Shown in pieces: positions 17,600 through 39,950 of a DNA stretch of 39,950 bases. The stretch covers positions 1-39,950 of IMG/VR virus record IMGVR_UViG_3300034101_004341, one strand, 5' to 3'. The notes beneath the pieces are model-generated. The model was not told where the DNA came from. It made no database searches and saw only the letters and a list, made by a program, of their open reading frames with translations. Source of the stretch: a virus. Position numbers and translations under genes: made by a program. Positions within the stretch are counted from its first letter, which is position 1. Each line of letters begins with the position of its first letter.

Positions 17600-18133
17600 T
17601 TATATTGTATTGTCTGAAATAACGTATTGAAAGGCTAGATTGACAGAGCAGGTTGCTAATTCGCCCCCGTTTCCGACTGAAAAACCCATAGAGCCAATTC
17701 CAACAGGGTAACATCCAACTAATTTGTAATTTCTTATTTCTTTTAAATAACTATCAAGCAATACAAATTCTATATCTGATAGAGAAGTAGTATTAATATG
17801 TTTATGCTCGTCAAATGTTTGACGACTCCAAGATTCTAATATATCTCTTAAAACAAATTGAGAATCACAATAAAACGTTACTGACCAGCTAGTACTCTCA
17901 GGGTAACTAGAAGTCATAGGTACGTTAAAATCAAATGCCTTAAAACTTACTGAAGAGTAAGAAATATTACGGGAAGGTATAGTACCGCCTTGAGCGTATA
18001 TTAATAAGTCACTATTATTTTCATTAAATACCCCGGTAATGTTTTTTATACGAAAAGTATTAGTACGAGCAAAACTACGTGTTACTGCCGTCTGGTAAAA
18101 ATCTTTTATTCCGTATCCTTGGGGTGGGGCCAT
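17600..18133 (-). CDS. Tail tube-like protein (gp19 family), 177 aa
   Basis: It begins with IKDFYQTAVTRSFARTNTFRIKNI (about 8-31), the same opening as the other tube genes, followed by SSVSFKAFDFNVPMTSSYPESTSWSVTFYCDSQFVLRDILESW, a charged loop (DEHKHINTTSL), YKLVGCYPVGIGSMGF, and CSVNLAFQYVISD. Length and block order match tail tube subunits. It is the first gene after the terminator that follows the presumed major tube gene, so it should be expressed at a lower level or from its own promoter. Its leader contains TTCAAGTATTAAGTATATTAA, two overlapping TAAGTAT-like motifs. It is probably a minor tube or tube-end protein; a redundant second tube subunit is the alternative. Confidence 0.7.
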   Translation of the reverse strand: MAPPQGYGIKDFYQTAVTRSFARTNTFRIKNITGVFNENNSDLLIYAQGGTIPSRNISYSSVSFKAFDFNVPMTSSYPESTSWSVTFYCDSQFVLRDILESWSRQTFDEHKHINTTSLSDIEFVLLDSYLKEIRNYKLVGCYPVGIGSMGFSVGNGGELATCSVNLAFQYVISDNTI

Positions 18134-18219: not shown

Positions 18220-18792
18220 TTAAAGCTGTATTCCAATATTAACCTGAAGAGACGACTGTGTTACGAAGTTAACGTGTCTCCAGTAATGGTAAGCTAACGT
18301 TGCAGAGAAGGTAGTAGGAGCCCCTGCACCGGTGGCGTCATAACCTTCAATAGCACCTAAGCCTACAATATAAACACCAAATAGTCTATAAACGTTGACT
18401 ACATTTTGTTTATCATCAAGCTGCTCTAGTTGAATAACTTTATCAGTACCACGTGTGTAAAGATCGCCTGTACTGGTTGCGTCATCAAACACTCCGTTAA
18501 TTTGCCAATTTTCTAATTTACTGCGAATAATGCCTCTTAAGTCATTACGGAACGTGACGCTCCAACTTTCAGACCCCGGGTACGTAACAGTACCAGGGGT
18601 GTTGAAGTTTAGACCCATATAAGGCACGGCTTGATTGGTGATCTGACGGTTCGGAAGCTGTTTTGTAGTTATATATACAAAATCATTTTCGTTGAACGTG
18701 TCTTCTCCTATAGAGGTAACACGCATCATAAAGTCACGTGAAAAACCTCTGGTCTGTGCTACTCTGTAGAAATCTTGAATTGTTTGTGACAT
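18220..18792 (-). CDS. Major tail tube protein (gp19-like)
   Basis: 190 residues with the full tube pattern: TIQDFYRVAQTRGFSRDFMMRVTSI (4-28), FVYITTKQLPNRQI, PYMGLNFNTPGTVTYPGSESWSVTFRNDLRGIIRSKLENW, YRLFGVYIVGLGAIEGYD, and FSATLAYHYWRHVNF. T4 gp19 has 163 residues. Hexameric rings of this protein form the inner tube through which DNA passes. I choose it as the major subunit among five relatives because it directly follows the sheath gene (21-base gap), is the most compact, and is followed by a strong terminator that isolates sheath and tube at high level. The upstream leader ACCTAAGTATTTAAACAAT is shared with the tape-measure gene. Confidence 0.85.
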   Translation of the reverse strand: MSQTIQDFYRVAQTRGFSRDFMMRVTSIGEDTFNENDFVYITTKQLPNRQITNQAVPYMGLNFNTPGTVTYPGSESWSVTFRNDLRGIIRSKLENWQINGVFDDATSTGDLYTRGTDKVIQLEQLDDKQNVVNVYRLFGVYIVGLGAIEGYDATGAGAPTTFSATLAYHYWRHVNFVTQSSLQVNIGIQL

Positions 18793-21248: not shown

Positions 21249-21827
21249 TTATAACAATTTGACATCTAGCTGCCCAAAAACAAACGTAAAAGAAGATTCA
21301 ATTTGTTCCCCGTCTCTATAGCTATAGCCGATTTCCCCTAAACCTGTGATAAACGCCCCGGAGTAATCAAATTGTATTTTTTTATTATTATACTCGTCCA
21401 ATCCGTATACTGTTATATTGGTTTTATAGCTTGTAGTGGTGTTGCCATCTGGATCTGGAATATTGCTAAAATTATATGAACTGTTTTTACTATCATTAAT
21501 TAAATTAAGCCATTTCCACAAAACCCACCAATTACTATAATAGTTGTCTATAGTAAAATTAACAGTTACCGCACCATAGGCCGGTCTTGCATAACTAGTA
21601 AATTTAGCGCCTTGTCCGCCGTACGGTGTATCTACTTCTGGTATAGCAATTGTAGGTACAACACTTCCGTAGACTGAATACTGTAGACTATCTAGATTTA
21701 GATAGTCAGTATTTCTATCTCCAGGACTAACTTTATTAATCTCTTTAAGTACGTTCGGTAAATTTAAGACAAGCAGAAACTTGTCTTTTCTATTTTTATT
21801 AAGAATCGATTGCTGAATAGCGCTCAT
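21249..21827 (-). CDS. Tail tube-like protein upstream of the sheath (gp19 family)
   Basis: 192 residues. The opening IQQSILNKNRKDKFLLVLNLPNVLKEI differs from the TIQDFY group. The core keeps the family order: SVYGSVVPTIAIPEVDTPYGGQGAKFTSYARPAYGAVTVNFTIDNYYSNWWVLWKWLNLI, KTNITVYGLDEYNNKKIQFDYSGAFITGLGEIGYS, and ESSFTFVFGQLDVKL. The pattern (conserved W, Y and G near the middle, F.GAF..GLG in the last third) suggests a tube-like protein of the neck or tube terminus. It overlaps the upstream gene by four bases (ATGA) and is separated from the sheath by 50 bases without a hairpin. Fifth member of the tube-like set in this window. Confidence 0.6.
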   Translation of the reverse strand: MSAIQQSILNKNRKDKFLLVLNLPNVLKEINKVSPGDRNTDYLNLDSLQYSVYGSVVPTIAIPEVDTPYGGQGAKFTSYARPAYGAVTVNFTIDNYYSNWWVLWKWLNLINDSKNSSYNFSNIPDPDGNTTTSYKTNITVYGLDEYNNKKIQFDYSGAFITGLGEIGYSYRDGEQIESSFTFVFGQLDVKLL

Positions 21828-23764
21828 TCATTAATTTTATTGGCTCTTTCAATAGGGGTATTTCTTGAAGAAGATTTAAAATTATTTATAGCTCTATTAA
21901 AAGCACTATAAAATTCATTTACCGGAGTTACGTTTTTCATTGGCCCCTTCGTTCTCGGTGTTTTTGCAGGTACAATTTGACCACCCGGGGAAGGTACTAA
22001 AGCAGTAGATGGTTCAATAGCAAGTTGCTGTTCCGGCTCTGCTTGTGGCGCTTGTTTTGGTTGTTCCCCGCTAGCATGCTGCACAATTGCTTGAGCTTGA
22101 GCTTCTGCTTGATTAATTATTTGTACAACCTGTTCTGGGCTTTTTGAAGAAGCAGCTTCTAGCGCTTCTTTAAGACGTGCTTCAAGTTCTTTTATTTCTC
22201 TATTAAGAGCTGCTCTTTCTCTTGCCAATGCTTTTTGGCTAGGGTCATTTCCTTTCACTTTTTGCGCACCGCCACCCCCACCCCCGCCACCGCCGCCCCC
22301 TCCGCCTCCTCCTCCACCACCACCGCCTCCTCCACCGCCTCCGCCTTCAGGTATAGGGTTAGAAGGTGCAGTAACCGTTTGAGCTGCTGCATTTGCAGTA
22401 GCTACAGCTCGATTAAGAACTTGTACAATTTGTCGAGTGTTATTATTTTGAGCAGCTCTACGTGCTTGTTCAAGCATTGTTCTTAAAGATTGTACTCGTT
22501 GGCGGAGTTCTGTTAATTGTTGCTGCGTTATAATCGCGCGTTTTCTGCCATAACCACCTCCGCCGCCTCCACCACCTCCGCCTCCACCTCCGCCCCCGCC
22601 TCCACCGTGTACACTTATATTTATACCACCCGGGCCATAACCACCCGGGCCATAACCACCCGGGCCTGGTCCAGGGCCTGGCGTCGGGCTGGGTGGGTTG
22701 CCGGAATAACCGCCAGATAAACTACCTGTGCCGGTTCCACCACCACCACCCCCACCACCAAATCTATTAAGAGCTGCCTTAATTAAAGGCACAACTGCAG
22801 TACCTGCGGGCCCAAATGCGATAGCTCCGATAGCAGCCCAAGGACCGTATTTACCTACCCATTTACTTAAACGGCCAAGAGCTCCGGCTCCTATAGTCTT
22901 TACCCCGCTCCAGGTATCTTTTGCTACTTTTTCTAGACCTCTTCCGAGACTTTTTGCGCCACGACCAAGACTTCTAGCTGCGCTGCTAGCAGCATTTTTT
23001 ATACCTTGCCAGACACCCTCTTCGTGAGTATTTTCATCAAATAAATAGAGGTCTTGATATGCTTCAAGTAAAACTTTCGGGGAGTATATTTCATTAACAT
23101 GCTCTGTAATAATATTTGTGTCTCCATTAGAATCAACAAATTCTTGTAGTTTTCTTATAGAGACTATATCCCCAGTTTCATAAAAATGTTTTACACATTC
23201 ATTAATAATAATTTCTTCTATAGTAGTTTCACCAACAGGGGTAGAAGAAGAATATTTTTTTATGATTTGATTAATTGCATTTGTATCATTAGTACTAGCT
23301 GCTTGCTGTAATTCAGCTAAAGCTTTAGGATTTGTTTTAGCAATTTGCTGTACAAGAGTGTCAATTACTGAAGGTAATTCGTTTTGCGGAATTTGCTGGG
23401 CAGCTTGCTGTATAGTTTCAGTGCCTTGTTGAGCTGGCTGCTGACCAGCCTGCTGAGCAGGGGCTGCTTGCTGAGCTTGAGCTGGAGCTGCTTGTTGAGG
23501 TGCTTGCTGTGCTGGTTGCTGGGCAGGGGCTGCTTGTTGGGCTGGTTGTTGAGCTTGAGCCGGAGCTGCTTGCTGGGCAGGCTGCTGAGCCGGAACTGCT
23601 TGTTGAGCTGGTTGGGCAGCAGGAGCAGGAGCACCTGAAGCAACTGGTGCTTCAGTCAGATAACTTTCAACTAAAGAACTAATATAACTATAATTTTGCT
23701 CCGCCATCCAGTTTTGGAATCTAGCAAGCTCATATTTCTCTTGAAGAGGGCCCAAGTTTTTCAT
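21824..23764 (-). CDS. Low-complexity Ala/Gln/Pro- and poly-Gly protein, possible packaged or structural protein
   Basis: 646 residues, family not recognised. Residues 1-38 are an amphipathic helix ending SYLTE, followed by APVASG: L-T-E before A fits the T4 prohead protease rule ((L/I)-x-E, then A/G/S). About 40-118 is Ala/Gln/Pro repeat (PAQQ, QAAPAQ). About 120-255 is a folded-looking helical part (ELPSVIDTLVQQIAKTN). About 255-340 has LGRGAKSLGRGLEKV and a hydrophobic YGPWAAIGAIAFGPAGTAVVPLI. The rest is Gly tracts (about 9, then 18, then 26 Gly), coiled-coil segments (TELRQRVQSLRTMLEQARRA; LARERAALNREIKELEARL), and a basic tail. It overlaps the tube-like gene by four bases and follows the nucleotidyltransferase by 3. 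Confidence 0.7.
   Translation of the reverse strand: MKNLGPLQEKYELARFQNWMAEQNYSYISSLVESYLTEAPVASGAPAPAAQPAQQAVPAQQPAQQAAPAQAQQPAQQAAPAQQPAQQAPQQAAPAQAQQAAPAQQAGQQPAQQGTETIQQAAQQIPQNELPSVIDTLVQQIAKTNPKALAELQQAASTNDTNAINQIIKKYSSSTPVGETTIEEIIINECVKHFYETGDIVSIRKLQEFVDSNGDTNIITEHVNEIYSPKVLLEAYQDLYLFDENTHEEGVWQGIKNAASSAARSLGRGAKSLGRGLEKVAKDTWSGVKTIGAGALGRLSKWVGKYGPWAAIGAIAFGPAGTAVVPLIKAALNRFGGGGGGGGTGTGSLSGGYSGNPPSPTPGPGPGPGGYGPGGYGPGGINISVHGGGGGGGGGGGGGGGGGGYGRKRAIITQQQLTELRQRVQSLRTMLEQARRAAQNNNTRQIVQVLNRAVATANAAAQTVTAPSNPIPEGGGGGGGGGGGGGGGGGGGGGGGGGGAQKVKGNDPSQKALARERAALNREIKELEARLKEALEAASSKSPEQVVQIINQAEAQAQAIVQHASGEQPKQAPQAEPEQQLAIEPSTALVPSPGGQIVPAKTPRTKGPMKNVTPVNEFYSAFNRAINNFKSSSRNTPIERANKINE
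22268..22345 (-). repeat. Poly-glycine tract, 26 Gly codons
   Basis: Twenty-six consecutive glycine codons on the minus strand using GGT, GGC, GGA and GGG in a mixed order, bounded by a Glu codon and Ala-Gln. The mixed codons mean selection keeps the amino-acid run rather than a slipping DNA repeat. Confidence 0.9.
22553..22606 (-). repeat. Poly-glycine tract, 18 Gly codons
   Basis: Eighteen consecutive glycine codons between His and Tyr, again with mixed codons. A shorter third tract lies near 22735-22760. Confidence 0.9.
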
Positions 23765-24837: not shown

Positions 24838-25587
24838 ATGAGCCGATTTTTAAAGTTATTAGAAGAAGCAAAGATAGCTAATAACCCAGCTATCTATACT
24901 AAAAAACTAGATACTCTAATTAACTACTTAAAGGATAAAGAAAAAGTATTACTACTTACAACCAGTAACCGTTGGGAAGGCGACAAGGAGCAACCTAAGA
25001 GTACACAACTAGCAGAGTTTGTTAAAAAAGAAGTCGGTAACAATGCAGAATTAATTGACGTAAGCAAACTTACAATATATTGCTGTGAGGGTAATGTGAG
25101 TAAAATGGACGGTAATAATTGTGGAGTTAAAGACGCAGCTTTAAAAGACAAAGAAAAAAACCCTACCGGGGATCACCGTTGCTGGGCATCTATAAACAAT
25201 AAAGATGATGAATTATGGAAAGTATCTAAACCTTTATTTGAAGCTGATGCTGTAATATTTTTTGTGAGTGTGCGCTGGGGACAAGCTAATAGTGTTTATC
25301 AAAAATTAATTGAACGTCTAAACTGGATAGAGAATAGACATACAACTTTAGAAGAAGATAATATAATAGAAGGTAAAGACGCTGGTATTGTAGTTATAGG
25401 TCAAAACTGGAACGGTACAGCTGTCTTAGATACCCAGAAAAAAGTATTAGACTTTTACGGCTTTAACGTGCCTGATGAGTTAAGCTTTAACTGGCAATAT
25501 ACCGACGATACTTTAGATGAAACTCAAGAGAGCTATAAAAAAGCTCCAGAAGCGTTTGAAAAGTCTTTCGACATTAAACTGAAGTAA
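24838..25587 (+). CDS. Flavodoxin-fold NAD(P)H-dependent FMN reductase-like protein
   Basis: 249 residues. KVLLLTTSNRW (36-46) is the first strand and phosphate loop, KSTQLAEFVKKEV is helix 1, AELIDVSKLTIYCCEGNVS (71-88) leads into a Cys-containing loop (C82, C83, C95), ELWKVSKPLFEADAVIFFVSVRWGQANSVYQKLIERLNWI is the conserved A-D-A-(I/V)-(I/V)-x-x-(S/T)-P/V-x-x-(W/Y)-G segment, and DAGIVVIGQNWNG is a later strand. This matches FMN reductase/iron-sulfur flavoprotein-type enzymes that pass electrons from NAD(P)H to quinones or other acceptors. The N terminus MSRFLKLLEE-A is an add-on before the fold and looks like a T4 capsid-targeting leader (L-E-E before A). Plus-strand island; its end overlaps the convergent glycosyltransferase by 14 bases. 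Confidence 0.7.
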   Translation: MSRFLKLLEEAKIANNPAIYTKKLDTLINYLKDKEKVLLLTTSNRWEGDKEQPKSTQLAEFVKKEVGNNAELIDVSKLTIYCCEGNVSKMDGNNCGVKDAALKDKEKNPTGDHRCWASINNKDDELWKVSKPLFEADAVIFFVSVRWGQANSVYQKLIERLNWIENRHTTLEEDNIIEGKDAGIVVIGQNWNGTAVLDTQKKVLDFYGFNVPDELSFNWQYTDDTLDETQESYKKAPEAFEKSFDIKLK

Positions 25588-26266
25588 CTGGCCCGTAACG
25601 CTCTTCTATAATTTTCATATTGCGGGCATACGTAACTTGCTGGTTAGGATTAGCATTAACCGTTGACCCGCCTTCGTGAAAGATGGGGAACGGTCCCGCA
25701 ACTTTATTAGTACCTACAACTCCGTCTAGTCTTACTTCAGGCACTTGGTGTATACTGTACCCTGCATTGTACGCTCGAATGCAAAAATCAATATCTTCTC
25801 CACAGCCAGGGGTAAAAGTCTCATCAAGTAAACCGACTTTGTTTATTACTTCTCTTTTAATAGCCGCGCAAAAGAAAAGCACCCAGGGCTTATGGCCTTG
25901 ATAGCGTTTAATAAGCCCAGTAACTCCTGCTTTAGGGTGATTATTAAAAGGTTCAAGAAGTTGATCTAGCCAAGACTTATCAAATAAGACAGTATCGTTG
26001 TTAAGCAATATAACATAATCTCCAGTAGCAGCTGACATACCCATATTAACCGCTTTAGGGTACCCTAAAGGTTTAGGCCACTGAACCATATGAAAATGTT
26101 TATTTTTATACTCTGCTTCAAAAAGTACTTTTGTATAATCTGTACAGCCATTTGATACTATAATCACTTCCCCATCTGTCAAATCAGTATTATCTTTAAC
26201 ACTTTTAAGACATTTATTAAGAAGGTCCCAACGATTGAGTGTTGGTATTACTATAGAAAATTTCAT
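25574..26266 (-). CDS. Family 2 glycosyltransferase, 230 aa
   Basis: Typical GT2 order: KFSIVIPTLNRWDLLNKCLKSV (2-23), VIIVSNGCTD (34-43), PLGYPKAVNMGMSAATGDYVILLNNDTVL with NND as the metal site, VTGLIKRYQ, and the acceptor-side block NKVGLLDETFTPGCGEDIDFCIRAYNAGY containing the GxxED base. All catalytic features are present, so it should be active and cytoplasmic. Donor and acceptor are unknown. It overlaps the MGMFDNI gene upstream by four bases (ATGA), forming a two-gene minus-strand unit between two plus-strand islands, and its stop region overlaps the convergent reductase gene. Confidence 0.9.
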   Translation of the reverse strand: MKFSIVIPTLNRWDLLNKCLKSVKDNTDLTDGEVIIVSNGCTDYTKVLFEAEYKNKHFHMVQWPKPLGYPKAVNMGMSAATGDYVILLNNDTVLFDKSWLDQLLEPFNNHPKAGVTGLIKRYQGHKPWVLFFCAAIKREVINKVGLLDETFTPGCGEDIDFCIRAYNAGYSIHQVPEVRLDGVVGTNKVAGPFPIFHEGGSTVNANPNQQVTYARNMKIIEERYGPVTSV

Positions 26267-28885: not shown

Positions 28886-29425
28886 TCAATAGTAAAAGTC
28901 TTCTTTAACTACTTCTTGTTTCTTTTTTAAAGCAGCTATACCTTGCCCGTCAGTAATTACTTCAATTAAGTCATAATACTTTAACGACATTTGATAGTCT
29001 GAACGATTAAAGTCGTGAATAAAAACAATTACATTTTCATCTATAATATCCCAAAGATATTTTGCGCAATATTTTCTTGCTCTACCGTCTATAAGAGCTT
29101 TAGTAAATTTTAATTTTTTAGTCGCAGGTATGTGGATATAATCTTTAAATTGTTCGTACCTACACGGCTTGGGGTCCGGACTATGGGCAGCTTGATATAT
29201 TAACTCTACATTAGTAATATCATACGCGCTTATTACTTTTTTAAGATTGTTTATCCAATCTATATCGTGCTCTATAGAAATAACATTTTTCACTATACCG
29301 GAAAAGTATATAGTGCTGTTACCACTACCATATTCGAGCAGTGTATCGTCTCTGTTTAAATATTTTTCTATAAACTTATACTCATGCTCATGCATGAGAG
29401 GTCTAAAAGAGTTAAATTTATTCAT
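28886..29425 (-). CDS. SAM-dependent methyltransferase-like protein, 179 aa
   Basis: TLLEYGSGNSTIYF (28-41) is the class I motif I (E-x-G-x-G-x-S-T), VISIEHDIDWINNLKK (48-63) is motif II with an acidic residue to bind the ribose, and KALIDGRARKYCAKYLWDII followed by NVIVFIHDFNRSDYQ is the second half with D-G-R...H-D. This pattern fits small-molecule or sugar methyltransferases of the type found in surface-glycan clusters. It overlaps the GT8-GT9 gene by four bases. It probably modifies a sugar or a lipid-linked intermediate made by its neighbours, but DNA methylation motifs (such as DPPY) are absent. Confidence 0.65.
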   Translation of the reverse strand: MNKFNSFRPLMHEHEYKFIEKYLNRDDTLLEYGSGNSTIYFSGIVKNVISIEHDIDWINNLKKVISAYDITNVELIYQAAHSPDPKPCRYEQFKDYIHIPATKKLKFTKALIDGRARKYCAKYLWDIIDENVIVFIHDFNRSDYQMSLKYYDLIEVITDGQGIAALKKKQEVVKEDFYY

Positions 29426-31020
29426 CGGTTATTTTCGTATATATCCATTACTTCCTTCACAACAGTATCGACATCTGGTAGATATTCAAGTACTGTCTTT
29501 TCTTTTGGAATAAAATCAATAGTATCGTGTTTAAACTCTGTATGACGAACTTCAAGATCGTCTAAGAGAAGATTCTTACGAAGTGCTTTTGTTTTATAAT
29601 ACTGAGTACCATTACGGAATGGTAAAATATGGTCCTCGTGTTTGCAAGTAGGGAATGTAACAATCCAGTTATCAAACGCTCCCGCAACATGTAAAGGAGA
29701 TGAATCATTAGTTACTAAGCACCTTGAAAGGGAGATAAGAGCAAAAAGCTGACCGAGTGTGGTAAGATCTCTAAGATCGTAACCGTCTTCCGGCACTTTA
29801 ACCGGCAAATACCCTTGCTTTTCATCAATAGTTCTACCGATTAGTACTACGGTAAGTTTTTCTGAGAGTTTGTTAACAATATCCTGCCACCAATCAATTG
29901 GTAGGGTCTTTGAAGGCCACCATCTGCCTGCGTGAACAATTACAGTAGGTTTATCAGGATTTTTATTTTTAAACAAATCAATTACATAAGAAACGTCTTC
30001 AGTGTCTAGTTTTAATTGAATAGTTTTATCCTTATTAGGAATCGTTCTCTTAATCATGGACATCGAAGCAAAATCAGTAGGATGAAAAAGCACGTGGGAC
30101 AATTTATGCTCAGATTGCTCTTCATCCGGGCAGGTATGCATTGTTATTAATGCATCATTTATTCCTTTCCATTGATCGTAGTTAATTACCGGACAACTAA
30201 GATGTTCAAATAGTCTCGGAAAGTGAGTCACAACTGTAATGTTTGTGTCTGGATATAATTTTTGTACGTATCGTATAGCGGGCTCTGAACAGAGCTGGTC
30301 TCCTAGCCCTGCGGTTACCGAGATTAAAATATTACGCTTATATTTATATCCTTCTTGTTTGTCTTTTTCCCATTGTTCAATATCTTTAAGAATAACATCC
30401 ATTTGTATATTCTTTGGGGCCCCAGCATAATGTACTATATAAGAATTTAAACGAGAGATTCCACAAAATTTATCAAGAATGTCCATACGATTAAAATCAT
30501 AATGCAAATCATGCATTTCAATCTTATCGTTTAAAATTCTAAGATTAATATAGGGTTGATCTGTCTCAACAAAATCAACCCCTTTAGGAAGTCTAAAGAT
30601 TTGTTTATGTATACGTGAGATAACCATTACCCCGGAATTGTAAAATTTGCCGCCCCATTTTTTTAGCGGTTCATTATAATATTCTGAAGCTTGTTCAAGG
30701 TACTCAAAACGCGGAGCGTACCGGCCTTCGTTAAGCATACCTAGTTTATTTTCAGGTACAATTTTAAGAAGATCGGGGCAATCTTCTCTAATTAAAATAT
30801 CAATATCGAAGTAGATGATTCGTTTATATTGATTTAAAAGTTCAGCTATGAGAAATTTATTCCACTTCTGAGTGATATAATATTTGTTAAATTCGGCAAT
30901 ATTTAAAAAATCAGCACCAATTTTTTCGGCGTAGTTTTTAATAGAAGGCAAAGTAATCTTTGCAACTTCGTTATAGTAATCCCCAATTGAGATGGTTAAA
31001 ACTAGGCTCTCTTTTTTCAT
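29422..31020 (-). CDS. Two-domain glycosyltransferase: GT8-like plus GT9 heptosyltransferase-like
   Basis: 532 residues. The first domain opens SLVLTISIGDYYNEVA and has KRIIYFDIDILI (66-77) with D72-x-D74, GKFYNSGVMVIS (124-135) and TDQPYINLRI, typical of GT8/GT-A enzymes. From about 230 the GT-B-type GT9 domain runs: ILISVTAGLGDQLCSEPAIRYV (231-252), TVIVHAGRWWPSKTLPIDWWQDIV (359-382), VVLIGR (391-396), DLTTLGQLFALISLSRCLVTNDSSPLHVAGAF (418-449). GT9 enzymes add heptose to lipopolysaccharide core. The start lies inside the upstream gene (50-base overlap), but it is needed for the first beta strand of GT8. A fusion of these two folds in one phage protein is uncommon in my experience. Confidence 0.8.
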   Translation of the reverse strand: MKKESLVLTISIGDYYNEVAKITLPSIKNYAEKIGADFLNIAEFNKYYITQKWNKFLIAELLNQYKRIIYFDIDILIREDCPDLLKIVPENKLGMLNEGRYAPRFEYLEQASEYYNEPLKKWGGKFYNSGVMVISRIHKQIFRLPKGVDFVETDQPYINLRILNDKIEMHDLHYDFNRMDILDKFCGISRLNSYIVHYAGAPKNIQMDVILKDIEQWEKDKQEGYKYKRNILISVTAGLGDQLCSEPAIRYVQKLYPDTNITVVTHFPRLFEHLSCPVINYDQWKGINDALITMHTCPDEEQSEHKLSHVLFHPTDFASMSMIKRTIPNKDKTIQLKLDTEDVSYVIDLFKNKNPDKPTVIVHAGRWWPSKTLPIDWWQDIVNKLSEKLTVVLIGRTIDEKQGYLPVKVPEDGYDLRDLTTLGQLFALISLSRCLVTNDSSPLHVAGAFDNWIVTFPTCKHEDHILPFRNGTQYYKTKALRKNLLLDDLEVRHTEFKHDTIDFIPKEKTVLEYLPDVDTVVKEVMDIYENNR

Positions 31021-31750
31021 AGTTCTCTTTAAGTTTATATGAAGTTAAAGCTTTTTCAATCTCAACAATTAACTTTTCTGACATAATTTCTTTATACCCA
31101 CCGATTTTTCCTTTAACAGGGCCAAAATTAGGTAAGGATTTATCCTGAACATCGGGAATATTTGCTGCAATTTTCTTTTCAATCCAATTTTCAATTTTTT
31201 GTTTAAGAAAAGAATAATTTGTAAGCATATCTTCGTAATCAACTACAAGCATTTTATCTTTATACTTTAACCAACCATTAGTATGCAAAAACCAGCGATG
31301 AACATAACTTTCTGGTTCAATGATAATATGCGGATCGGGTACATATGGTTTAAAAAAATTAAAACCAATAGTGCCAGGTTTACTAAATACCCATTCTTCA
31401 AATGACGGAAAATTCTTTATTTCCGTAGAATGTAAAAATTTGTAGTAGCTGTTTAACACATCTTTAATATCTCGCTTAACATAAATAACTTTATATTTGG
31501 TAAACAAAAATTCTAAATAGTCTTCCATAAACTCAACTTGATGATGGGACTTGTTTACTGAATCTACAAAATATGCGTTAGATATAATATGTTTGTATGT
31601 ATTATGTTTATAGTCTTTTAAATTAAACTCGAGAGCTTTTGAGGTAAAACCGATAGTAGTAAACTGTCCTTTCTTATCATGGTTTATACAATTAATTAAT
31701 AAATGCGTACCAGATCGCTCGTGTGTTATAACAATTACCGGTTTAACCAT
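30971..31750 (-). CDS. Sulfotransferase, 259 aa
   Basis: VIVITHERSGTHLLINCI (5-22) matches the 5'-phosphosulfate loop of PAPS-dependent sulfotransferases. YKVIYVKRDIKDVLNSYYKFL (86-106) matches the 3'-phosphate-binding element (R93, D94, S101). W-F-L-x-x-x-x-x-W (about 152-160) and LVVDYEDML follow in the usual order. The enzyme would move sulfate from host-made PAPS to a carbohydrate or protein; no PAPS-making gene is in the window. It has a 50-base overlap with the downstream GT8-GT9 gene and sits 2 bases after the RCC1 gene. The nearby fibre is very Tyr-rich, so a tyrosine acceptor is conceivable, but a sugar acceptor is the more usual case. Confidence 0.8.
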   Translation of the reverse strand: MVKPVIVITHERSGTHLLINCINHDKKGQFTTIGFTSKALEFNLKDYKHNTYKHIISNAYFVDSVNKSHHQVEFMEDYLEFLFTKYKVIYVKRDIKDVLNSYYKFLHSTEIKNFPSFEEWVFSKPGTIGFNFFKPYVPDPHIIIEPESYVHRWFLHTNGWLKYKDKMLVVDYEDMLTNYSFLKQKIENWIEKKIAANIPDVQDKSLPNFGPVKGKIGGYKEIMSEKLIVEIEKALTSYKLKENYEKREPSFNHLNWGLL

Positions 31751-31752
31751 TA

Positions 31753-33966
31753 TTAAATATTATAAACTCTTACCGGTGTAAGTACAACTACATTTTCAGG
31801 CTGAATTGGCAATTGCCCGGAATCATTTCGGCCCCAACCCCAAACTTTTCCATTTTTATCTATAGCTATTGTAGAATTATTAATTGCAGCTATTTTGCAA
31901 AATGTTTTATTAGCCCCTACAACACTGACAGGGGTGTTTCGCTGAGTTGATGTATTGTCGCCAAGTTGTCCGTAAAGATTATAACCCCAGCCCCATGCTT
32001 TTCCGTATCTGTCTATAGCTACAGAATGGCCAAAGCCGCCTGCTATTTCACAAAATGTTTTAACCGCCCCTTGAACACTAAATACATCATCGTCTCTATC
32101 ATCCCAATTGGTATTTCCAACTTGCCCAAAGTCATTATATCCCCACCCCCAACACCTTCCACGTAAATCAATAGCAAGTCCATGATCAGAACCTGCGGCT
32201 ATTTTACAGAAAGTACGATTAGTTAATGCAACAGAGATAGGCGTATTCACGGATACAAGGGCATCTACATCTCTAGCCAATTTTCCGCCAGCATTATCTC
32301 CCCACCCCCACAGTCTACCTGTACTTCTTAAAGCAAGAGAAAATTGAGTTCCTGCTGCTACTTGACAAAATGTTTTTATTGCCCCAAGTACGCTTACAGG
32401 GGTATTCCGCGAGACCGTTGAATTATTTCCAAGGGCTCCAAACGTATTATTTCCCCACGCCCAAGCTCTGCCGTTTTTATCTATAGCTAAAGAATGAGCG
32501 TTTCCGCAATCTATTTGACAAAATGTTTTAGCGGCCCCAAGAATGCTAACAGGGGTATTTCGCTGAGTGGTAGAATTATCTCCAATTCTGCCGTTTGTAT
32601 TTAAGCCCCAACCCCAAAGTCTACCGGTATTAGCAATCGCCAAGGTCCAACCTCCGCCGCTTGCTACTTTACAGAAAGTTTTATTAACCCCTGCGAGGTT
32701 AATTGGAGTATATCTAGCAGTAGTTGTATTGTCTCCGATAAAACCAGATGTATTGACGCCCCAAGACCATATTTTGCCAACTCTATCTATCATTATCGAA
32801 AATCCACCACCAATATTAACTTGACAAAAAGTTTTATTTGCCCCTAAAACTATACTTTTTGGTGTTCGTACAAGAGCAGATAAGTTTGCTCCTAATTGAC
32901 CTTGGTCGTTCGGGCCCCAAGCCCAGGTATTGTTATTTTTATCGATCGCTAAAGCATGTTGATTACCAGCAGCAATTTGACAAAATGTCTTTATGGCCCC
33001 AGCTACGCTAACCGGCGTGTTTCTAGCTGTAACAGAATTATCCCCAAGAAGTCCGGTTGTATTAAATCCCCAACCCCAAGCTCTACCGTTTTTATCAAGA
33101 GCAAGAGTCTGTCCGTTACTAAGACTTATTTTACAAAATGTTTTAACTGCCCCTGCTAAACTGACCGGTGTTAATTGTTGAACGTTTGCACCATTTCCAA
33201 GCTGACCGCTATTATTAAAGCCCCAAGACCAAATTCTACCATTTTTATCAATTGCTGCACTAGTAGCGTTCCCTGCAGCTATTTCACAAAATGTTTTAAC
33301 TACACCCAAAACACTTACAGGGGTAAGAGAGCTAACAGTTGAATTTCTCCCAAGACGTCCATCACCCCCGTTGCCCCACGCCCATGCGCGTCCGTTTTTA
33401 TCAATAGCTAAACTCCATGCATTTCCTGCTGCTATTTTGCAAAACGTTTTAACCGCGCCTAGGACGCTTACTGGAGTTCTTTTGCTAACAATTGTATTAT
33501 CACCGAGGCGACCGTTGGCACCATCACCCCATGCCCATGCACGTCCAGTATGAGTCAGAGCTAAAGAATGGTTGCCAAGGCTTGCTGCTATATGGCAAAA
33601 CGTTTTTACTCCTCCAAGAATACTTACTGGTGTGAGTCGCTGGGTAATTGTATTATCTCCTACTTCGCCAGAAATATTTCTACCCCAACCCCATGCTCTA
33701 CCGTTTTTATCTATAGCTAAAGAAAAATTGGCCCCTGCACTTATTTTGCAAAATGTTTTTACTGCCCCTAAAACACTTACAGGAGTTGACCTGTTGGCTG
33801 CCACCCCGGACACATTAATACCAAGTTGACCGAAGTTATTGTATCCCCAGCTCCATGCTCGACCGCTTTGTACAGACAAAGAAAAGAGTCCGCCCGCGGC
33901 AACAAGATCAGTTATCGCTGTAGCTCCTGCTTTTCTTCGTAACACCGTGCTAAATACTAAACTCAT
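31753..33966 (-). CDS. RCC1-repeat protein, 14 repeats, probable double beta-propeller
   Basis: 737 residues, nearly all RCC1-type repeats of about 51 residues. The unit reads AAG..HSLAID.NGRAW.WG.N..GQLGDN......TPVSV.GA.KTFC(K/Q)I. I count fourteen, starting at about residue 25 and ending at the C terminus, equal to two seven-bladed propellers. Thirteen repeats end in TFC before K/Q/E/H-I/V, so a Cys recurs at the same point. Some blades diverge, for example the seventh with KNNNTW and PKSIVLGANKTFC. There is no signal peptide or membrane segment. In a phage this could be a receptor-binding or spacer part of the tail fibre. It lies between the small fibre-associated gene (7 bases) and the sulfotransferase (2 bases). 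Confidence 0.9.
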   Translation of the reverse strand: MSLVFSTVLRRKAGATAITDLVAAGGLFSLSVQSGRAWSWGYNNFGQLGINVSGVAANRSTPVSVLGAVKTFCKISAGANFSLAIDKNGRAWGWGRNISGEVGDNTITQRLTPVSILGGVKTFCHIAASLGNHSLALTHTGRAWAWGDGANGRLGDNTIVSKRTPVSVLGAVKTFCKIAAGNAWSLAIDKNGRAWAWGNGGDGRLGRNSTVSSLTPVSVLGVVKTFCEIAAGNATSAAIDKNGRIWSWGFNNSGQLGNGANVQQLTPVSLAGAVKTFCKISLSNGQTLALDKNGRAWGWGFNTTGLLGDNSVTARNTPVSVAGAIKTFCQIAAGNQHALAIDKNNNTWAWGPNDQGQLGANLSALVRTPKSIVLGANKTFCQVNIGGGFSIMIDRVGKIWSWGVNTSGFIGDNTTTARYTPINLAGVNKTFCKVASGGGWTLAIANTGRLWGWGLNTNGRIGDNSTTQRNTPVSILGAAKTFCQIDCGNAHSLAIDKNGRAWAWGNNTFGALGNNSTVSRNTPVSVLGAIKTFCQVAAGTQFSLALRSTGRLWGWGDNAGGKLARDVDALVSVNTPISVALTNRTFCKIAAGSDHGLAIDLRGRCWGWGYNDFGQVGNTNWDDRDDDVFSVQGAVKTFCEIAGGFGHSVAIDRYGKAWGWGYNLYGQLGDNTSTQRNTPVSVVGANKTFCKIAAINNSTIAIDKNGKVWGWGRNDSGQLPIQPENVVVLTPVRVYNI
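31756..33890 (-). repeat. Fourteen RCC1 repeats at about 153-bp period
   Basis: DNA copies of the C-terminal repeat half (GGGG-rich ACACCTGT.. AAAACATTTTG-type stretch) recur about every 153 bases through the gene. Copies are diverged at silent sites, so the array is old or was diversified. Confidence 0.85.
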
Positions 33967-33973
33967 AACTTAA

Positions 33974-34483
33974 TTATAATGTTACGGCAAGCGTAAAAAT
34001 GTCATTTACTTGTTGTTCAGTTAAATTTAAATTTGTTGCCATCATATTAACAAGAGGGTGCTCTTTTTTAATTTCTAAAGCGTACTCCCACTCTGCATAA
34101 GCAATTTCTTTTTGAGTGGGGTCGGTAATTGCATTAATTTGGGAATCTATTATAGATGGCATTATACCAGTTAAAATTAATGCAATTCTTAATTGTCTAG
34201 GAGTACAACTATCCGGGGGCTGTGGGAGTCTATCGTTAATTTCTTGTTGGGATAAATTTCTAACATATGATTCTTCGATCCATTTATAATTAGACAAATC
34301 TGCAAAAGATCTACGCTCTAGAGTTTGAGTTTGAGAATTGTAAACGGGATCTGACCGTCTCTCTATTTCGAGCTCAACTAAATAGTCTGGCAAAGTCCCG
34401 GGTTCTCCATCTACAAGATAACGTCCTTGCCTGATTGGTCCTTCTCTTTGCTGAGTATTTAAATTATATAGAAATGTTTCCAT
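33974..34483 (-). CDS. Small tail-fibre-associated protein, 169 aa
   Basis: First half: FLYNLNTQQREGPIRQGRYLVDGEPGTLPDYLVELEIER, then WIEESYVRNLSQQEINDRLP, a charged helical part. Second half: SCTPRQLRIALILTGIMPSIIDSQINAI, TQKEIAYAEWEYALEIKKEHPLVNMMATNLNLTEQQVNDIFTLAVTL. The C-terminal block (C-T-P-R-Q-x-R-x-A-L-x-x-x-G ... E-W-E-Y-A ... L-x-L-x-x-x-Q-x-(D/N)-x-(I/L)-F-x-x-A) is one I recognise from proteins encoded beside tail fibres in many tailed phages, where they help fibre folding or attachment. Seven bases separate it from the collagen-like fibre gene upstream and seven from the RCC1 gene downstream. Exact function unproven. Confidence 0.65.
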   Translation of the reverse strand: METFLYNLNTQQREGPIRQGRYLVDGEPGTLPDYLVELEIERRSDPVYNSQTQTLERRSFADLSNYKWIEESYVRNLSQQEINDRLPQPPDSCTPRQLRIALILTGIMPSIIDSQINAITDPTQKEIAYAEWEYALEIKKEHPLVNMMATNLNLTEQQVNDIFTLAVTL

Positions 34484-34490
34484 AAATTAA

Positions 34491-37400
34491 TTATGCAAGT
34501 TGTCTTTCCCCGAATAAAGTCCAAGTATCGGCTGCAACATATTTTAATGTTACAACCGCGTATTGTTTTTCAGTGTACCGAGTTTGACTTGTATTTATAG
34601 TCACGCCCGCGGATGGATTAAAAAATATTTGACCAGCGCCAGCTTGTTCAAAAATTATTTCAGTATTGCTTGCCCAAGCGGCGCTAGCTGCGGTAACAAC
34701 TGTTGCAGTAACAGTAGTTGCCGCGGTAGTACGAACGTATTCATATGCATAAGAACTATCTACGTTGAATGAAGTCGCGGCCGTAGATACTACTGGGAAA
34801 TAGCCCCAAATGTCTGAATTGCCGCTACTAGCATAAATTGTAGCGGTGGATCGAATAGGTCCAGAAACTTCAAATTTATATGTTGCTCCTTGTGTACCTA
34901 CACCCACATTAGTGCCGTTATCGAATATTTGACTATTACCAAGAGCTGCTGCACCAGTAAATTTAGATACAAAATTTGTAGTACCTGTTGCATTAGCGTT
35001 AGTACCTTGAGCGCCTTGATTACCTTGAGCGCCTGCTGCGCCTTGATTACCTTGTACCCCCGCTATACCTGAGTAACCTGAATAACCAGACGCGCCTTGA
35101 GCACCGGCAGCGCCTTGATTACCTTGTGCGCCTTGACTACCTTGACTACCGGTTGCTCCTTGAGCGCCTACTGCTCCTTGCGCGCCTTGATAGCCAGAGT
35201 AACCTGAAATACCAGAGTAGCCACTAATACCCGAATAACCTGAGTAACCAGATACTCCCTGAACACCGGCTGCTCCTTGGTTGCCTTGGGCACCTGCTGC
35301 TCCTTGGTTACCTTGATTGCCTTGTGCACCAGCTGCTCCTTGATTGCCTTGGTTGCCTTGGGCTCCGGCAGCGCCTTGGTTACCTTGGGCGCCTTGATAA
35401 CCTGAATAGCCAGATACACCTTGTACACCTGCAGCTCCTTGGTTGCCTTGGTTACCTTGAGCACCAGCTGCTCCTTGATTGCCTTGGTTACCTTGTGCCC
35501 CGGCTGCTCCTTGGTTACCTTGGTTACCTTGGTTACCTTGGGCGCCGGTAGCCCCTTGGTTGCCTTGATTACCTTGGGCACCATTATTACCAGAATAACC
35601 AGAATATCCAGATACCCCTTGTACCCCGGCTGCTCCTTGATTGCCTTGATTACCTTGCGCGCCAGCTGCTCCTTGATTACCTTGATTACCTTGTGCACCG
35701 GCAGCGCCTTGGTTGCCTTGGTTACCTTGGTTACCTTGATAACCGGAATATCCTGATCTACCGGAGTACCCACTAATACCGGAGTACCCACTAATACCGG
35801 AGTATCCGCTTATACCGGAGTAACCAGAATAGCCTGACACCCCTTGGGCACCAGCCGCGCCTTGGTTGCCTTGGGCTCCAGCGGCTCCTTGATTACCTTG
35901 AGCACCGGCAGCGCCTTGGTTGCCTTGTGCGCCTGCAGCGCCTTGGTTGCCTTGGTTGCCTTGAGCTCCGTTATTACCTGAATAGCCTGAATAACCAGAT
36001 CTACCAGAGTAACCACTTATACCCGAGTAGCCGCTGATACCGGAATAGCCGCTAATACCAGAGTAACCGCTAATACCAGAATAACCTGAAATGCCAGAAT
36101 AACCGCTTATACCAGAATATCCAGAATAGCCAGAACCTCCTTGATTACCTTGGGCCCCTGCTGCGCCTTGATTGCCTTGATTACCCTGGTTACCTTGATT
36201 GCCTTGTACCCCTGTAGCGCCTTGATACCCTGAATAACCAGATCTACCGGAGTAGCCGCTAATACCGCTATAGCCTGAATAACCAGATACGCCTTGTATA
36301 CCAGTTGCGCCTTGGTTGCCCTGATTGCCTTGGTTGCCTTGGACTCCAGCTGCTCCTTGGTTGCCTTGGTTGCCTTGGGCACCATTATTACCAGAGTAGC
36401 CCGAGTAGCCGGATCTACCAGAATAACCGCTAATGCCGGAGTAGCCGCTTATACCACTATAACCACTAATACCTGAATACCCTGAATACCCGGATACACC
36501 CTGTGTCCCTACTGCACCTTGATTGCCTTGGTTGCCTTGGTTACCCTGTACACCAGTTGCGCCTTGGTTGCCTTGATTGCCCTGATTGCCCTGGGCACCA
36601 TTATTGCCAGAATAGCCTGAGTAACCGGATCTACCAGAATAACCGCTAATGCCGGAGTAGCCACTAATACCAGAGTAACCGCTAATACCTGAGTAACCAG
36701 AATACCCGCTTGTACCTGAATAGCCGCTTGTACCTGAATAGCCGCTGATACCAGAGTAACCGCTTATGCCTGAATAGCCTGAATAACCGGATACTCCTTG
36801 GGCACCTACTGCACCTTGATTGCCCTGGTTGCCTTGATTGCCTTGATTACCCTGGGCACCATTATTGCCTGAATAGCCCGAATAACCGGATACTCCTTGT
36901 ACACCGGTTGCGCCTTGGTTGCCCTGATTACCTTGGTTGCCTTGCACGCCAGTTGCGCCTTGGTTGCCCTGATTGCCTTGGTTGCCTTGATTACCTTGTA
37001 CTCCTTGGAAGCCTTGATACCCTGAATAACCAGATCTACCGGAGTAGCCGCTAATACCGCTATAGCCTGAAATGCCAGAGTAGCCGCTAATACCGCTGTA
37101 ACCGCTAAAGCCACTAAAGCCGCTATAGCCGCTGTAACCACTGAACCCACTAAAGCCAGAAATACCTGAGTACCCGCTTATACCAGAATACCCTGAAGTG
37201 CCTTGTACTCCTTGTACCCCCTGGAAGCCTTGGTAGCCGCTATAACCACTTCTACCGCTAAAACCAGATATACCAGAATAACCGCTAATACCAGAATAGC
37301 CGCTAAAGCCAGATATACCGGAATAACCACTGATGCCGGAATAGCCTGATATACCTGAATAACCAGATACACCTTGTACGCCGGTTGCGCCTTGGTTGCC

Positions 37401-39950
37401 CTGATTGCCTTGGTTGCCCTGTACGCCCTGTACGCCTTGAAAGCCTTGATAACCGGAGTAGCCTGAAGCTGCTGCAGCCCCTTGGAAGCCGCTATATCCA
37501 CTAATGCCTGAGTAACCGCTTATGCCAGAATAACCTGATGCACCTTGTACCCCTTGTGCGCCTTGATACCCACTATACCCTGAAAAACCTGAATAGCCTG
37601 AAGCTGCTGCAGCGCCTTGGAAGCCACTATACCCACTGATACCAGAGTAACCACTAAAGCCGCTATAGCCAGAAATACCAGAGTAACCGCTAAACCCGCT
37701 GATACCGGAATAACCGCTTATACCGCTATAGCCTGAATAACCGGATCTACCGGAATAACCGCTTATACCAGAATAGCCGCTTATGCCGGAATAACCGCTT
37801 ATGCCGGAATAACCTGAGTAACCGCTAATGCCGCTGTAGCCGCTAAAGCCAGATATACCGGAATAACCGCTTATACCACTGAAACCACTATAACCGGAAA
37901 TGCCTGAGTAACCGCTTATGCCAGAGTAGCCTGACAGGCCTTGTACTCCTTGTACTCCTTGGAAGCCCTGGTAACCACTATACCCGCTAATACCGGAATA
38001 ACCGCTTATGCCAGAGTAGCCTGACAAGCCTTGTACGCCTTGTACTCCTTGGAAGCCCTGGTAGCCGCTATAACCTGATCTACCAGAGTATCCTGACAAG
38101 CCTTGTACCCCTTGTACCCCTTGGAACCCTTGATAGCCTGATATACCAGAATAGCCGCTAATACCACTGTAACCAGAAATACCAGAATAGCCCGATAAGC
38201 CTTGTACGCCTTGTATGCCCTGTATACCTTGTACTCCTTGGAAGCCTTGGTAACCAGAATAGCCTGATACGCCTTGCACACCGACCGCTCCTTGATTGCC
38301 TTGATTACCTTGCGCGCCTTGGAAGCCCTGATAACCTGAATACCCCGATCTGCCGGAGTAGCCAGATATACCACTATAGCCACTTATACCGCTGTAGCCA
38401 GATGTACCTGAATAACCACTTATACCGCTGTAGCCTGAAATACCTGAATAACCGGAGTAGCCTGAAAAGCCGCTAAACCCTGATATACCTGAATAACCAG
38501 AATACCCTGATATACCGCTATAGCCAGATATACCTGAGTATCCTGAATAGCCTGAGAACCCACTATAACCGCTTAAACCGCTGTAACCAGAAAGACCAGA
38601 GTAACCTGAAATACCGCTATAGCCTGAATACCCCGAGATGCCTGAGTAGCCACTATAGCCACTTGTACCGCTAATACCTGAATAGCCGCTAATGCCGCTG
38701 TAGCCTGAAGTGCCTGAATAACCTGAAATGCCTGAATATCCGCTGTAGCCACTTGTACCACTATAACCAGATATACCAGAGTAACCAGAAATACCACTGT
38801 AGCCAGATATACCTGAGTAGCCACTATAACCGCTTATACCGCTGTAGCCAGAGTAACCACTTATACCGCTATAGCCAGACAAACCAGAGTAGCCTGAAAT
38901 ACCACTATAACCAGAATAACCTGAGGTTCCTTGTACGCCTTGTACGCCTTGAAAACCTTGATAACCACTATACCCGGACGCTCCCTGTACCCCCTGTACC
39001 CCTTGGAAGCCTTGGAAGCCTTGGTACCCTGATGTACCAGAGTAACCACTAATACCGCTGTAACCTGAAATACCAGAATAGCCTGATAGACCTTGTACGC
39101 CTTGTACTCCTTGGAAGCCCTGGTAGCCGCTATAACCTGATCTACCAGAGTATCCTGATATACCGGAATATCCTGATAAACCAGAATAACCGCTAATACC
39201 GCTATAGCCTGAATAACCTGAAACACCGCTATAACCACTAATACCGCTATAACCACTATAACCGCTTGTACCTGAGTAACCGCTAGTACCACTTATACCC
39301 GAATAACCTGAAATACCGCTATAGCCAGAAATACCAGAAATACCAGAATAGCCACTTAGACCTGAGTAGCCGCTAATACCACTGTAGCCGGAGTAACCGG
39401 AATAACCGCTTAAACCTGAGTAACCGCTTGTACCACTATACCCTGAAATACCTGAGTAGCCGCTAATACCGCTATAACCTGAATAACCTGAAATACCGCT
39501 ATAACCAGAAACACCGGAGCCAGAATAACCACTATAACCAGAAATACCCGAATACCCCGAAATACCTGAATAACCGGAATAGCCGCTTATACCAGAATAA
39601 CCACTGTAGCCAGAGATACCTGAGTAGCCTGAGTAGCCTGAGTAGCCTGATACTCCAGACCCGGAATAACCTGATATACCTGAGTAACCTGAAATACCTG
39701 AGTAGCCTGATGTACCTGAGTAGCCGGAATAACCTGATGGTCCAGAATAACCAGATGTGCCTGAGTAGCCAGATATACCTGAGTAACCTGAATACCCTGA
39801 CTCTCCATAAGCAATTAATGCTGCTGTAAAGTATGTACCGGTACCGGCGCTATTAATATTTTGCCCAGCTGACGCACCTGTATAGGCAGTTACTTCTACA
39901 TAATCACTAGACCCGTTAAAATAGACTATTGTTGATAAAGATTGTCCTCG
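34491..39950 (-). CDS. Giant collagen-like tail fibre, 5'-partial (at least 1819 aa)
   Basis: The frame is open from the right edge to the TAA at 34491-34493, with no in-frame stop that I could find; the true start lies beyond 39950. The first 48 residues (GSSDYVEVTAYTGASAG, GTYFTAALIAYG) resemble the end of a C1q/TNF-like domain. Then 1603 residues (39806 down to 34998) are Gly-X-Y triplets with Y/I/F/V/N/A in X and mostly S or Q in Y. The last 168 residues are a non-repetitive C-terminal domain: TTNFVSKFTGAAALGNSQIFDNGTNVGVGT, YKFEVSGPI, then TEIIFEQAGAGQIFFNPSAGVTINTSQTRYTEKQYAVVTLKYVAADTWTLFGE, typical of phage fibre ends. It should form a trimeric fibre. No Pro-rich triplets and almost no charge except Arg. 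Confidence 0.9.
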   Translation of the reverse strand, partial: RGQSLSTIVYFNGSSDYVEVTAYTGASAGQNINSAGTGTYFTAALIAYGESGYSGYSGISGYSGTSGYSGPSGYSGYSGTSGYSGISGYSGISGYSGSGVSGYSGYSGYSGISGYSGYSGISGYSGYSGISGYSGISGYSGYSGSGVSGYSGISGYSGYSGISGYSGISGYSGTSGYSGLSGYSGYSGYSGISGYSGLSGYSGISGISGYSGISGYSGISGTSGYSGTSGYSGYSGISGYSGVSGYSGYSGISGYSGLSGYSGISGYSGRSGYSGYQGFQGVQGVQGLSGYSGISGYSGISGYSGTSGYQGFQGFQGVQGVQGASGYSGYQGFQGVQGVQGTSGYSGYSGISGYSGLSGYSGISGYSGYSGISGYSGYSGISGYSGISGYSGISGYSGTSGYSGYSGISGYSGTSGYSGISGYSGISGTSGYSGYSGISGYSGYSGISGYSGLSGYSGLSGYSGFSGYSGYSGISGYSGISGYSGYSGISGFSGFSGYSGYSGISGYSGISGYSGTSGYSGISGYSGISGYSGRSGYSGYQGFQGAQGNQGNQGAVGVQGVSGYSGYQGFQGVQGIQGIQGVQGLSGYSGISGYSGISGYSGISGYQGFQGVQGVQGLSGYSGRSGYSGYQGFQGVQGVQGLSGYSGISGYSGISGYSGYQGFQGVQGVQGLSGYSGISGYSGISGYSGFSGISGYSGISGFSGYSGISGYSGYSGISGYSGISGYSGISGYSGRSGYSGYSGISGYSGISGFSGYSGISGYSGFSGYSGISGYSGFQGAAAASGYSGFSGYSGYQGAQGVQGASGYSGISGYSGISGYSGFQGAAAASGYSGYQGFQGVQGVQGNQGNQGNQGATGVQGVSGYSGISGYSGISGYSGISGFSGYSGISGYSGISGFSGRSGYSGYQGFQGVQGVQGTSGYSGISGYSGISGFSGFSGYSGYSGFSGFSGYSGISGYSGISGYSGISGYSGRSGYSGYQGFQGVQGNQGNQGNQGNQGATGVQGNQGNQGNQGATGVQGVSGYSGYSGNNGAQGNQGNQGNQGNQGAVGAQGVSGYSGYSGISGYSGISGYSGTSGYSGTSGYSGYSGISGYSGISGYSGISGYSGRSGYSGYSGNNGAQGNQGNQGNQGATGVQGNQGNQGNQGAVGTQGVSGYSGYSGISGYSGISGYSGISGYSGRSGYSGYSGNNGAQGNQGNQGAAGVQGNQGNQGNQGATGIQGVSGYSGYSGISGYSGRSGYSGYQGATGVQGNQGNQGNQGNQGAAGAQGNQGGSGYSGYSGISGYSGISGYSGISGYSGISGYSGISGYSGISGYSGRSGYSGYSGNNGAQGNQGNQGAAGAQGNQGAAGAQGNQGAAGAQGNQGAAGAQGVSGYSGYSGISGYSGISGYSGISGYSGRSGYSGYQGNQGNQGNQGAAGAQGNQGNQGAAGAQGNQGNQGAAGVQGVSGYSGYSGNNGAQGNQGNQGATGAQGNQGNQGNQGAAGAQGNQGNQGAAGAQGNQGNQGAAGVQGVSGYSGYQGAQGNQGAAGAQGNQGNQGAAGAQGNQGNQGAAGAQGNQGAAGVQGVSGYSGYSGISGYSGISGYSGYQGAQGAVGAQGATGSQGSQGAQGNQGAAGAQGASGYSGYSGIAGVQGNQGAAGAQGNQGAQGTNANATGTTNFVSKFTGAAALGNSQIFDNGTNVGVGTQGATYKFEVSGPIRSTATIYASSGNSDIWGYFPVVSTAATSFNVDSSYAYEYVRTTAATTVTATVVTAASAAWASNTEIIFEQAGAGQIFFNPSAGVTINTSQTRYTEKQYAVVTLKYVAADTWTLFGERQLA
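34998..39806 (-). repeat. Gly-X-Y triplet repeat region, about 535 triplets
   Basis: Gly recurs every third codon over 4809 bases, with super-blocks. The right (N-terminal) part is mostly GYS and GIS. The middle adds GFQGVQGVQ blocks. The left (C-terminal) part is rich in GNQ, GAA, GAQ and GNNGAQ. A GRS triplet usually closes a GYS/GIS run before GYSGY(Q/S). Phase breaks are two GYSGSGVS sites (GS at 39516-39521 and 39657-39662), each one residue short, and Gly is replaced by Ala in two GAAAAS blocks near 37465 and 37600. Ser codons vary (TCA, TCT, AGC, AGT, TCC). Confidence 0.95.

Follow-up and report, generated by a model that had tools for sequence, protein, structure and literature searches.

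Collagens encoded by phages are already known, and the accepted sources of collagen stability are hydroxyproline, proline and charge pairs. EPclA and EPclB, side-tail proteins of E. coli O157:H7 prophages, are phage fibres in which Gly-X-Y blocks alternate with non-collagen domains (at both ends and between the blocks), the C-terminal part is exchanged and block lengths differ by multiples of three; for a collagen of E. coli prophages, a trimeric triple helix has been demonstrated (PMC3368898). In the EPclA-type E. coli phage collagens, Pro occupies 48% of the X positions (22% in other viral collagens) and about one-third of the residues at X and at Y are charged, while Tyr, Phe and Trp are absent; proline and charge have been proposed to stabilise the collagens of bacteria and viruses (PMC3368898, with its Table 4).

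The window analysed here, 39,950 nucleotides of viral DNA (IMG/VR record IMGVR_UViG_3300034101_004341), carries at one end a fibre gene that shares this plan with EPclA and EPclB but differs from EPclA both in scale (2,841 collagen residues compared to 111, or about 30 nm) and in chemistry (at X, 0.2% Pro and 43% Tyr, with few charges). Neither the PfN nor the PfC domain of EPclP was found by Pfam in its two end parts, and its repeat is not built of the Pro-rich, charged EPclP-type triplets (GPK, GPQ, GER; PMC3368898, section 6), which sets the fibre apart from the EPclP family.

Against cultured phages, blastn with a collagen segment gave one match and tblastn, under its low-complexity filter, gave none. 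The match, P19250A_0023 of the Methylophilaceae phage P19250A (KX815270), has 281 GYS/GFS/GIS-type triplets, which would span about 240 nm, with 4 Pro and 71% DNA identity to part of the repeat, but at 1,201 aa it holds less than one-third of the triplets, and it belongs to a 38.7-kb phage with other neighbouring genes. Its annotation names it a tail length tape-measure protein, yet its sequence is that of a GYS-type collagen fibre. The 735-kb phage LR756501 shares with our gene a beta-sandwich domain between collagen blocks (34.5% identity), but its triplets are GTS/GSS/GPQ, with proline in places, and its N-terminal domain is different; three consecutive collagen ORFs of GTS/GSS triplets in this phage encode 814, 2,830 and at least 2,599 aa. 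The PHROG collagen tail-fibre families phrog_6320, phrog_5073, phrog_819 and phrog_1806 were matched through the Gly-X-Y repeat only, and a literature search for the motif GYSGYSG found no paper.

The fibre gene and its domains

In the window the gene occupies one frame that stays open over 1,819 codons, with no stop before its terminal one (Table 1). A TTG-start ORF of 1,463 aa (34491-38882) is an artefact of the ORF caller. With the C-terminal domain as query, another contig of this phage came to light, L002 (IMGVR_UViG_3300044625_000718), which is identical to the window (100%) over 13,043 bases and continues upstream, and in which the gene is complete from ATG to stop. Its product of 3,371 aa is the longest phage collagen among the 239 loci fetched. 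The first-pass annotation had described about 1600 residues of Gly-X-Y, in GYS/GIS/GNQ triplets with practically no Pro, in a protein running off the window edge. Length and composition were borne out (1,597 to 1,603 residues depending on the count, with 1 Pro in 1,597) and the protein does run off the edge, but this collagen block itself starts inside the window, after the end of a C1q-like domain. A stop codon or frameshift within 38883-39950, named there as what could overturn the reading, was looked for and none was found, and the start codon sought beyond the window is the ATG in L002.

Table 1. Positions of the fibre gene, its domains and other features. Nucleotide positions refer to the window unless a contig is named; aa positions use stop-to-stop numbering of the L002 frame.
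Feature	Position	Strand	Remarks
3' part of 3,371-aa collagen-like fibre gene	34491..39950	-	5' part off window, = L002:395-5050
Complete fibre gene	L002:395-10510		ATG to stop
C1q-like domain, final 48 residues	39807..39950	-	whole domain = L002:4769-5194
Collagen block 3, ~1,600 residues Gly-X-Y (GYS/GIS/GNQ/GVQ/GAQ)	34998..39806	-	PF01391 E=1.4e-31 on one segment
Two G1G register breaks (GYSGSGVSG), likely hinges	39500..39665	-	span approximate
Two Gly-to-Ala sites	37470..37625	-	span approximate; context GFQGAAAASGYS
C-terminal tip, 168 residues	34494..34997	-	phage stalk motif and head
169-aa protein, phrog_6034 / phrog_14311 (function-unknown families)	33974..34483	-	directly after fibre gene
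N-terminal part	L002 frame, aa 1-55
Collagen block 1, 1,146 residues	L002 frame, aa 56-1201
Beta domain (beta-sandwich), 168 residues	L002 frame, aa 1202-1369
Collagen block 2, 92 residues	L002 frame, aa 1370-1461
C1q-like domain	L002 frame, aa 1462-1603
Collagen block 3, 1,603 residues	L002 frame, aa 1604-3206
Tip	L002 frame, aa 3207-3374
737-aa protein of RCC1 beta-propeller repeats	31753-33966	-	adjoins fibre
Sulfotransferase and several glycosyltransferases	30971-31750, 29422-31020, 25574-26266, 3289-5225	-	around tail and fibre genes
Four tail-tube paralogues (phrog_45, T4 gp19-like)	16807-17577, 17600-18133, 18220-18792, 21249-21827	-	around sheath gene
646-aa protein, PAQQ-type repeats and poly-glycine runs of about 20	21824-23764	-	beside tube gene
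Probable tape measure, 997 aa	11249-14242
Leucine-rich-repeat-like protein	L172:7474-8364	-	at contig end, beyond terminase gene
P19250A_0023	L203:4546-8151		annotated tape-measure protein

The two middle domains were modelled from an alignment in which two rows from the phage collection were left out. The domain between blocks 1 and 2 came out as a beta sandwich (pLDDT about 80-94). This domain is present in 42 viral loci, which include some of the same phage, and by fold it resembles fibre proteins of uncultured phages, one of them named for RCC1 repeats. The cocaine-esterase-type jelly rolls that were the best Foldseek match of the middle model (TM about 0.33) are taken as a generic beta-sandwich likeness only, and the bacterial genomes scanned with the beta-sandwich held no relative. 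The second joint was modelled with modest confidence (pLDDT about 55-71), and in Foldseek it matched the gC1q domains of C1QL1, C1QL3 and Cbln1 (probability 1.0, TM about 0.5 on target). Lying beside the predicted helix, it is a putative trimeriser. Complement C1q, C1QL and Cbln show the same pairing of collagen with a gC1q-type fold, but they are animal proteins with Pro/Hyp collagen and a terminal gC1q domain, whereas here the gC1q-like domain lies in mid-shaft.

The tip joins a common phage stalk motif (GTTNFVSKFTG..LGNSQIFDNGTNVG) to a head that is probably beta-rich, and is likely the receptor-binding end; its AF2 model was unusable at a mean pLDDT of 41, and its sequence has no match among solved structures. 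The N-terminal domain carries the motif FPHELPS..LERNN.DGTYTSYS. Pfam gave no match for the N-terminal part and none above cut-off for the C-terminal part, and PHROG gave none for the N-terminal, beta-sandwich or C1q-like domains. The 169-aa protein encoded directly after the fibre is a possible fibre-assembly or partner protein.

Relatives with the same kind of plan have 3,081, 2,315, 2,060, 1,933, 1,790 and 1,613 aa and differ in block lengths. The sister phage L003 (the 3,081-aa version) and two others, L005 and L006, have the stalk motif as in the window but a different head. Tips are exchanged between relatives while the plan is kept, and the number of repeats varies.

Genomic setting and place on the virion

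Judged by its genes for sheath (gp18-like, phrog_23), tube (gp19-like, phrog_45), head closure (gp14-like, phrog_679/460) and TerL (phrog_2/5989), this freshwater phage is a myovirus of the T4 superfamily. T4 has one tube gene, whereas four tube paralogues surround the sheath gene here, and a tube of mixed subunits is possible; relatives of all four are present in more than 70 fetched loci, and those inspected for gene order had the same one. The repeat-rich 646-aa protein is encoded beside one of these tube genes. Relatives of the RCC1-repeat protein next to the fibre were found in only five fetched loci. The sulfotransferase and the glycosyltransferases have a possible surface- or fibre-modifying role; the idea that they modify the fibre gained no support, as no more than 2 to 5 fetched loci contain relatives of these genes.

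We consider it probable that the gene encodes a modular homotrimeric adsorption fibre. Its short N-terminal domain would fix the fibre to the virion, at the neck or the baseplate, and the tip, the C1q-like trimer and the beta domain would align, register and clamp three chains that wind into three collagen triple helices, forming the shaft. The one-residue register breaks, together with the sites where Gly is replaced by Ser or Ala, would provide hinges, and the swappable tip would bind the host receptor. The fibre would then be a long, flexible tether, searching for the host far beyond the tail.

The whisker gene of T4, wac, is located close to genes 13 and 14, and its product, fibritin, is a trimeric alpha-helical coiled coil with a foldon. 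A fibre that is triple-helical but has no part in adsorption, decorating the collar or head as the T4 whiskers do and acting in sensing, aggregation or particle sticking, would agree with the gene order, as the fibre gene directly follows the neck head-closure gene (the N-terminal domain comes directly after the gp14-like Hc2 in the relatives checked). We nevertheless regard such a decoration as unlikely: no fibritin-type coiled coil was seen, the shaft being Gly-X-Y throughout and the end domains without a Pfam match, and tip exchange and neighbouring glycosyltransferases are marks of a host-recognition cluster (PMC7029224). In pelagimyophages this cluster lies between VrlC and gp14 (PMC7029224), and the present fibre adjoins its gp14-like neck gene in a variable region with fibres and glycosyltransferases, a correspondence that covers the gp14 border only.

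Composition and fold of the repeat

Block 3 contains 532 Gly among 1,597 residues, its most frequent triplets are GYS (179), GIS (87) and GNQ (62), and its only charged residues are 11 Arg. In the whole gene, Ile makes up a further 21% of X, Ser and Gln take 77% and 17% of Y, and the collagen residues include 3 Pro in 2,841, with charged residues in ~3% of triplets. The near-absence of proline supports the earlier description of the repeat as unlike animal or Streptococcus collagens, and by size and chemistry the protein appears unusual among phage collagens too. The scarcity of Pro and charge counts against a triple helix, whose stability here is putative.

The register Gly position is occupied by Gly in 942 of 949 cases in this gene (the others are 4 Ser and 3 Ala), and each of the six register shifts is a loss of one residue. 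We pooled 18 reading frames of this type (5,169 triplets), which are related genes, so that replacements and breaks are not independent events: the 29 lost Gly comprise 22 Ser and 7 Ala, the two smallest side chains after Gly, and no Asp, Val, Arg or Cys was found at the pooled Gly positions, though all four are one-step mutations from Gly codons. The 34 pooled register breaks are 31 G1G and 3 G4G, with none of the other types tested, and G1G and G4G are interruption classes of animal non-fibrillar collagens. Bulky residues number 3,608 at X versus 65 at Y, with one gene pair counted twice. With Gly at every third residue, the repeat scored 107 and 108.5 bits against Pfam Collagen (PF01391; cut-off 27.2, E about 1e-31). 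Codon identity between identical hexapeptides is 0.40-0.43, compared to 0.36-0.38 for shuffled codons; synonymous sites are thus near random, so that the protein pattern is an old one kept by selection and did not arise recently through DNA slippage. The repeat pattern agrees with a collagen triple helix and speaks against both disorder and a polyglycine-II bundle.

Were the Gly-X-Y stretches instead disordered, like the FUS-type [G/S]Y[G/S] low-complexity chains, they might condense or stick and form an adhesive brush on the virion. Their very high Tyr/Ser/Gly and Gln/Asn content, with nearly no Pro or charge, is of this kind, and the collagen part has a pLDDT of 22-32 in the AF2 model, which was run as a monomer and so could not have revealed a trimer. 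We find disorder improbable, however, as a strict three-residue register over up to 274 triplets, replacement of Gly by Ser or Ala only, breaks of the G1G and G4G types only and the asymmetry between X and Y would all be superfluous in a disordered chain, and the chain includes a C1q-like domain, a usual neighbour of triple helices. Polyglycine-II bundles occur in tip adhesins such as phage S16 gp38. A bundle of short strands in this style, suggested by the first-pass annotation as an alternative fold, has very little to recommend it beyond a glycine-rich and Pro-free repeat, because the repeat continues without interruption or turn signals for 274 triplets here and for 333 in the relative L006, leaving no room for the turns of a bundle, and because the repeat adjoins a trimer-type domain and lies in the shaft, not the tip.

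Length of the fibre and its implications

A collagen triple helix rises 0.286 nm per residue, at which the three blocks of the predicted triple-helical shaft would have a contour length of 812 nm. This is a contour length and not a reach, because a helix with breaks bends, and with its breaks and globular joints the real reach should be shorter. In mannan-binding lectin peptides, a one-residue GQG break bends the helix by 11-85 degrees and lowers its melting point, and one-residue irregularities in the stalk bend the helix in C1q and MBL (PMC9898670). The continuous helix of ~460 nm first put forward for the window was correct as arithmetic (1,597 x 0.286 = 457 nm), but the collagen is not in one piece: the ~2,840 residues are split up by two globular beta domains and by several breaks of the hinge type, and within block 3 alone the register is broken twice by one residue (GSGVSG) and Ala stands in place of Gly at two sites (GAAAASG). 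The accompanying proposal that the fibre is longer than the tail gains support from comparison with the tail suggested by the probable tape measure.

The window and contigs L182, L184, L185 and L186, which come from the same phage in other metagenomes, all end inside the fibre gene. Moreover, L006 and L007, two versions of one relative (1,790 and 1,613 aa) with identical flanks of 3 kb and 4.8 kb, differ solely within the repeat, where 135 and 396 bases are lost in frame, with 83- and 107-base direct repeats at the breakpoints, and this may be either natural repeat change or collapse by the assembler at those repeats. Although contigs that stop at different places within the gene and a relative with collapsible repeats could hint at an assembly artefact, that the length of the fibre reflects a chimeric or expanded repeat is barely conceivable, as the window and L002 agree over a stretch that includes ~5.4 kb of the fibre gene, L182, L184, L185 and L186 agree over blocks 1 and 2, the frame is open throughout, the sister phage has its own version of 3,081 aa, and no exact DNA repeat of 70 bases or more was found in the fibre gene, which can therefore be assembled from ordinary reads.

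Tentatively, the adsorption fibre proposed here may represent a class of collagen triple helix that needs neither imino acids nor salt bridges for its stability. Side-chain stacking and polar networks of Tyr/Ile at X and Ser/Gln at Y would hold it instead, with trimeric beta domains as clamps, in a fibre whose contour, near 0.8 micrometre, is possibly the longest known. If the fibre folds, it would offer a natural test of what other forces can stabilise a triple helix, and simple recombinant collagens that do without hydroxylation could be modelled on it. Such fibres are missed because contigs, like those of this phage, tend to break off within the gene. For phage biology, our analysis predicts a tether several tail lengths long, whose length varies between relatives and whose tip is exchanged.
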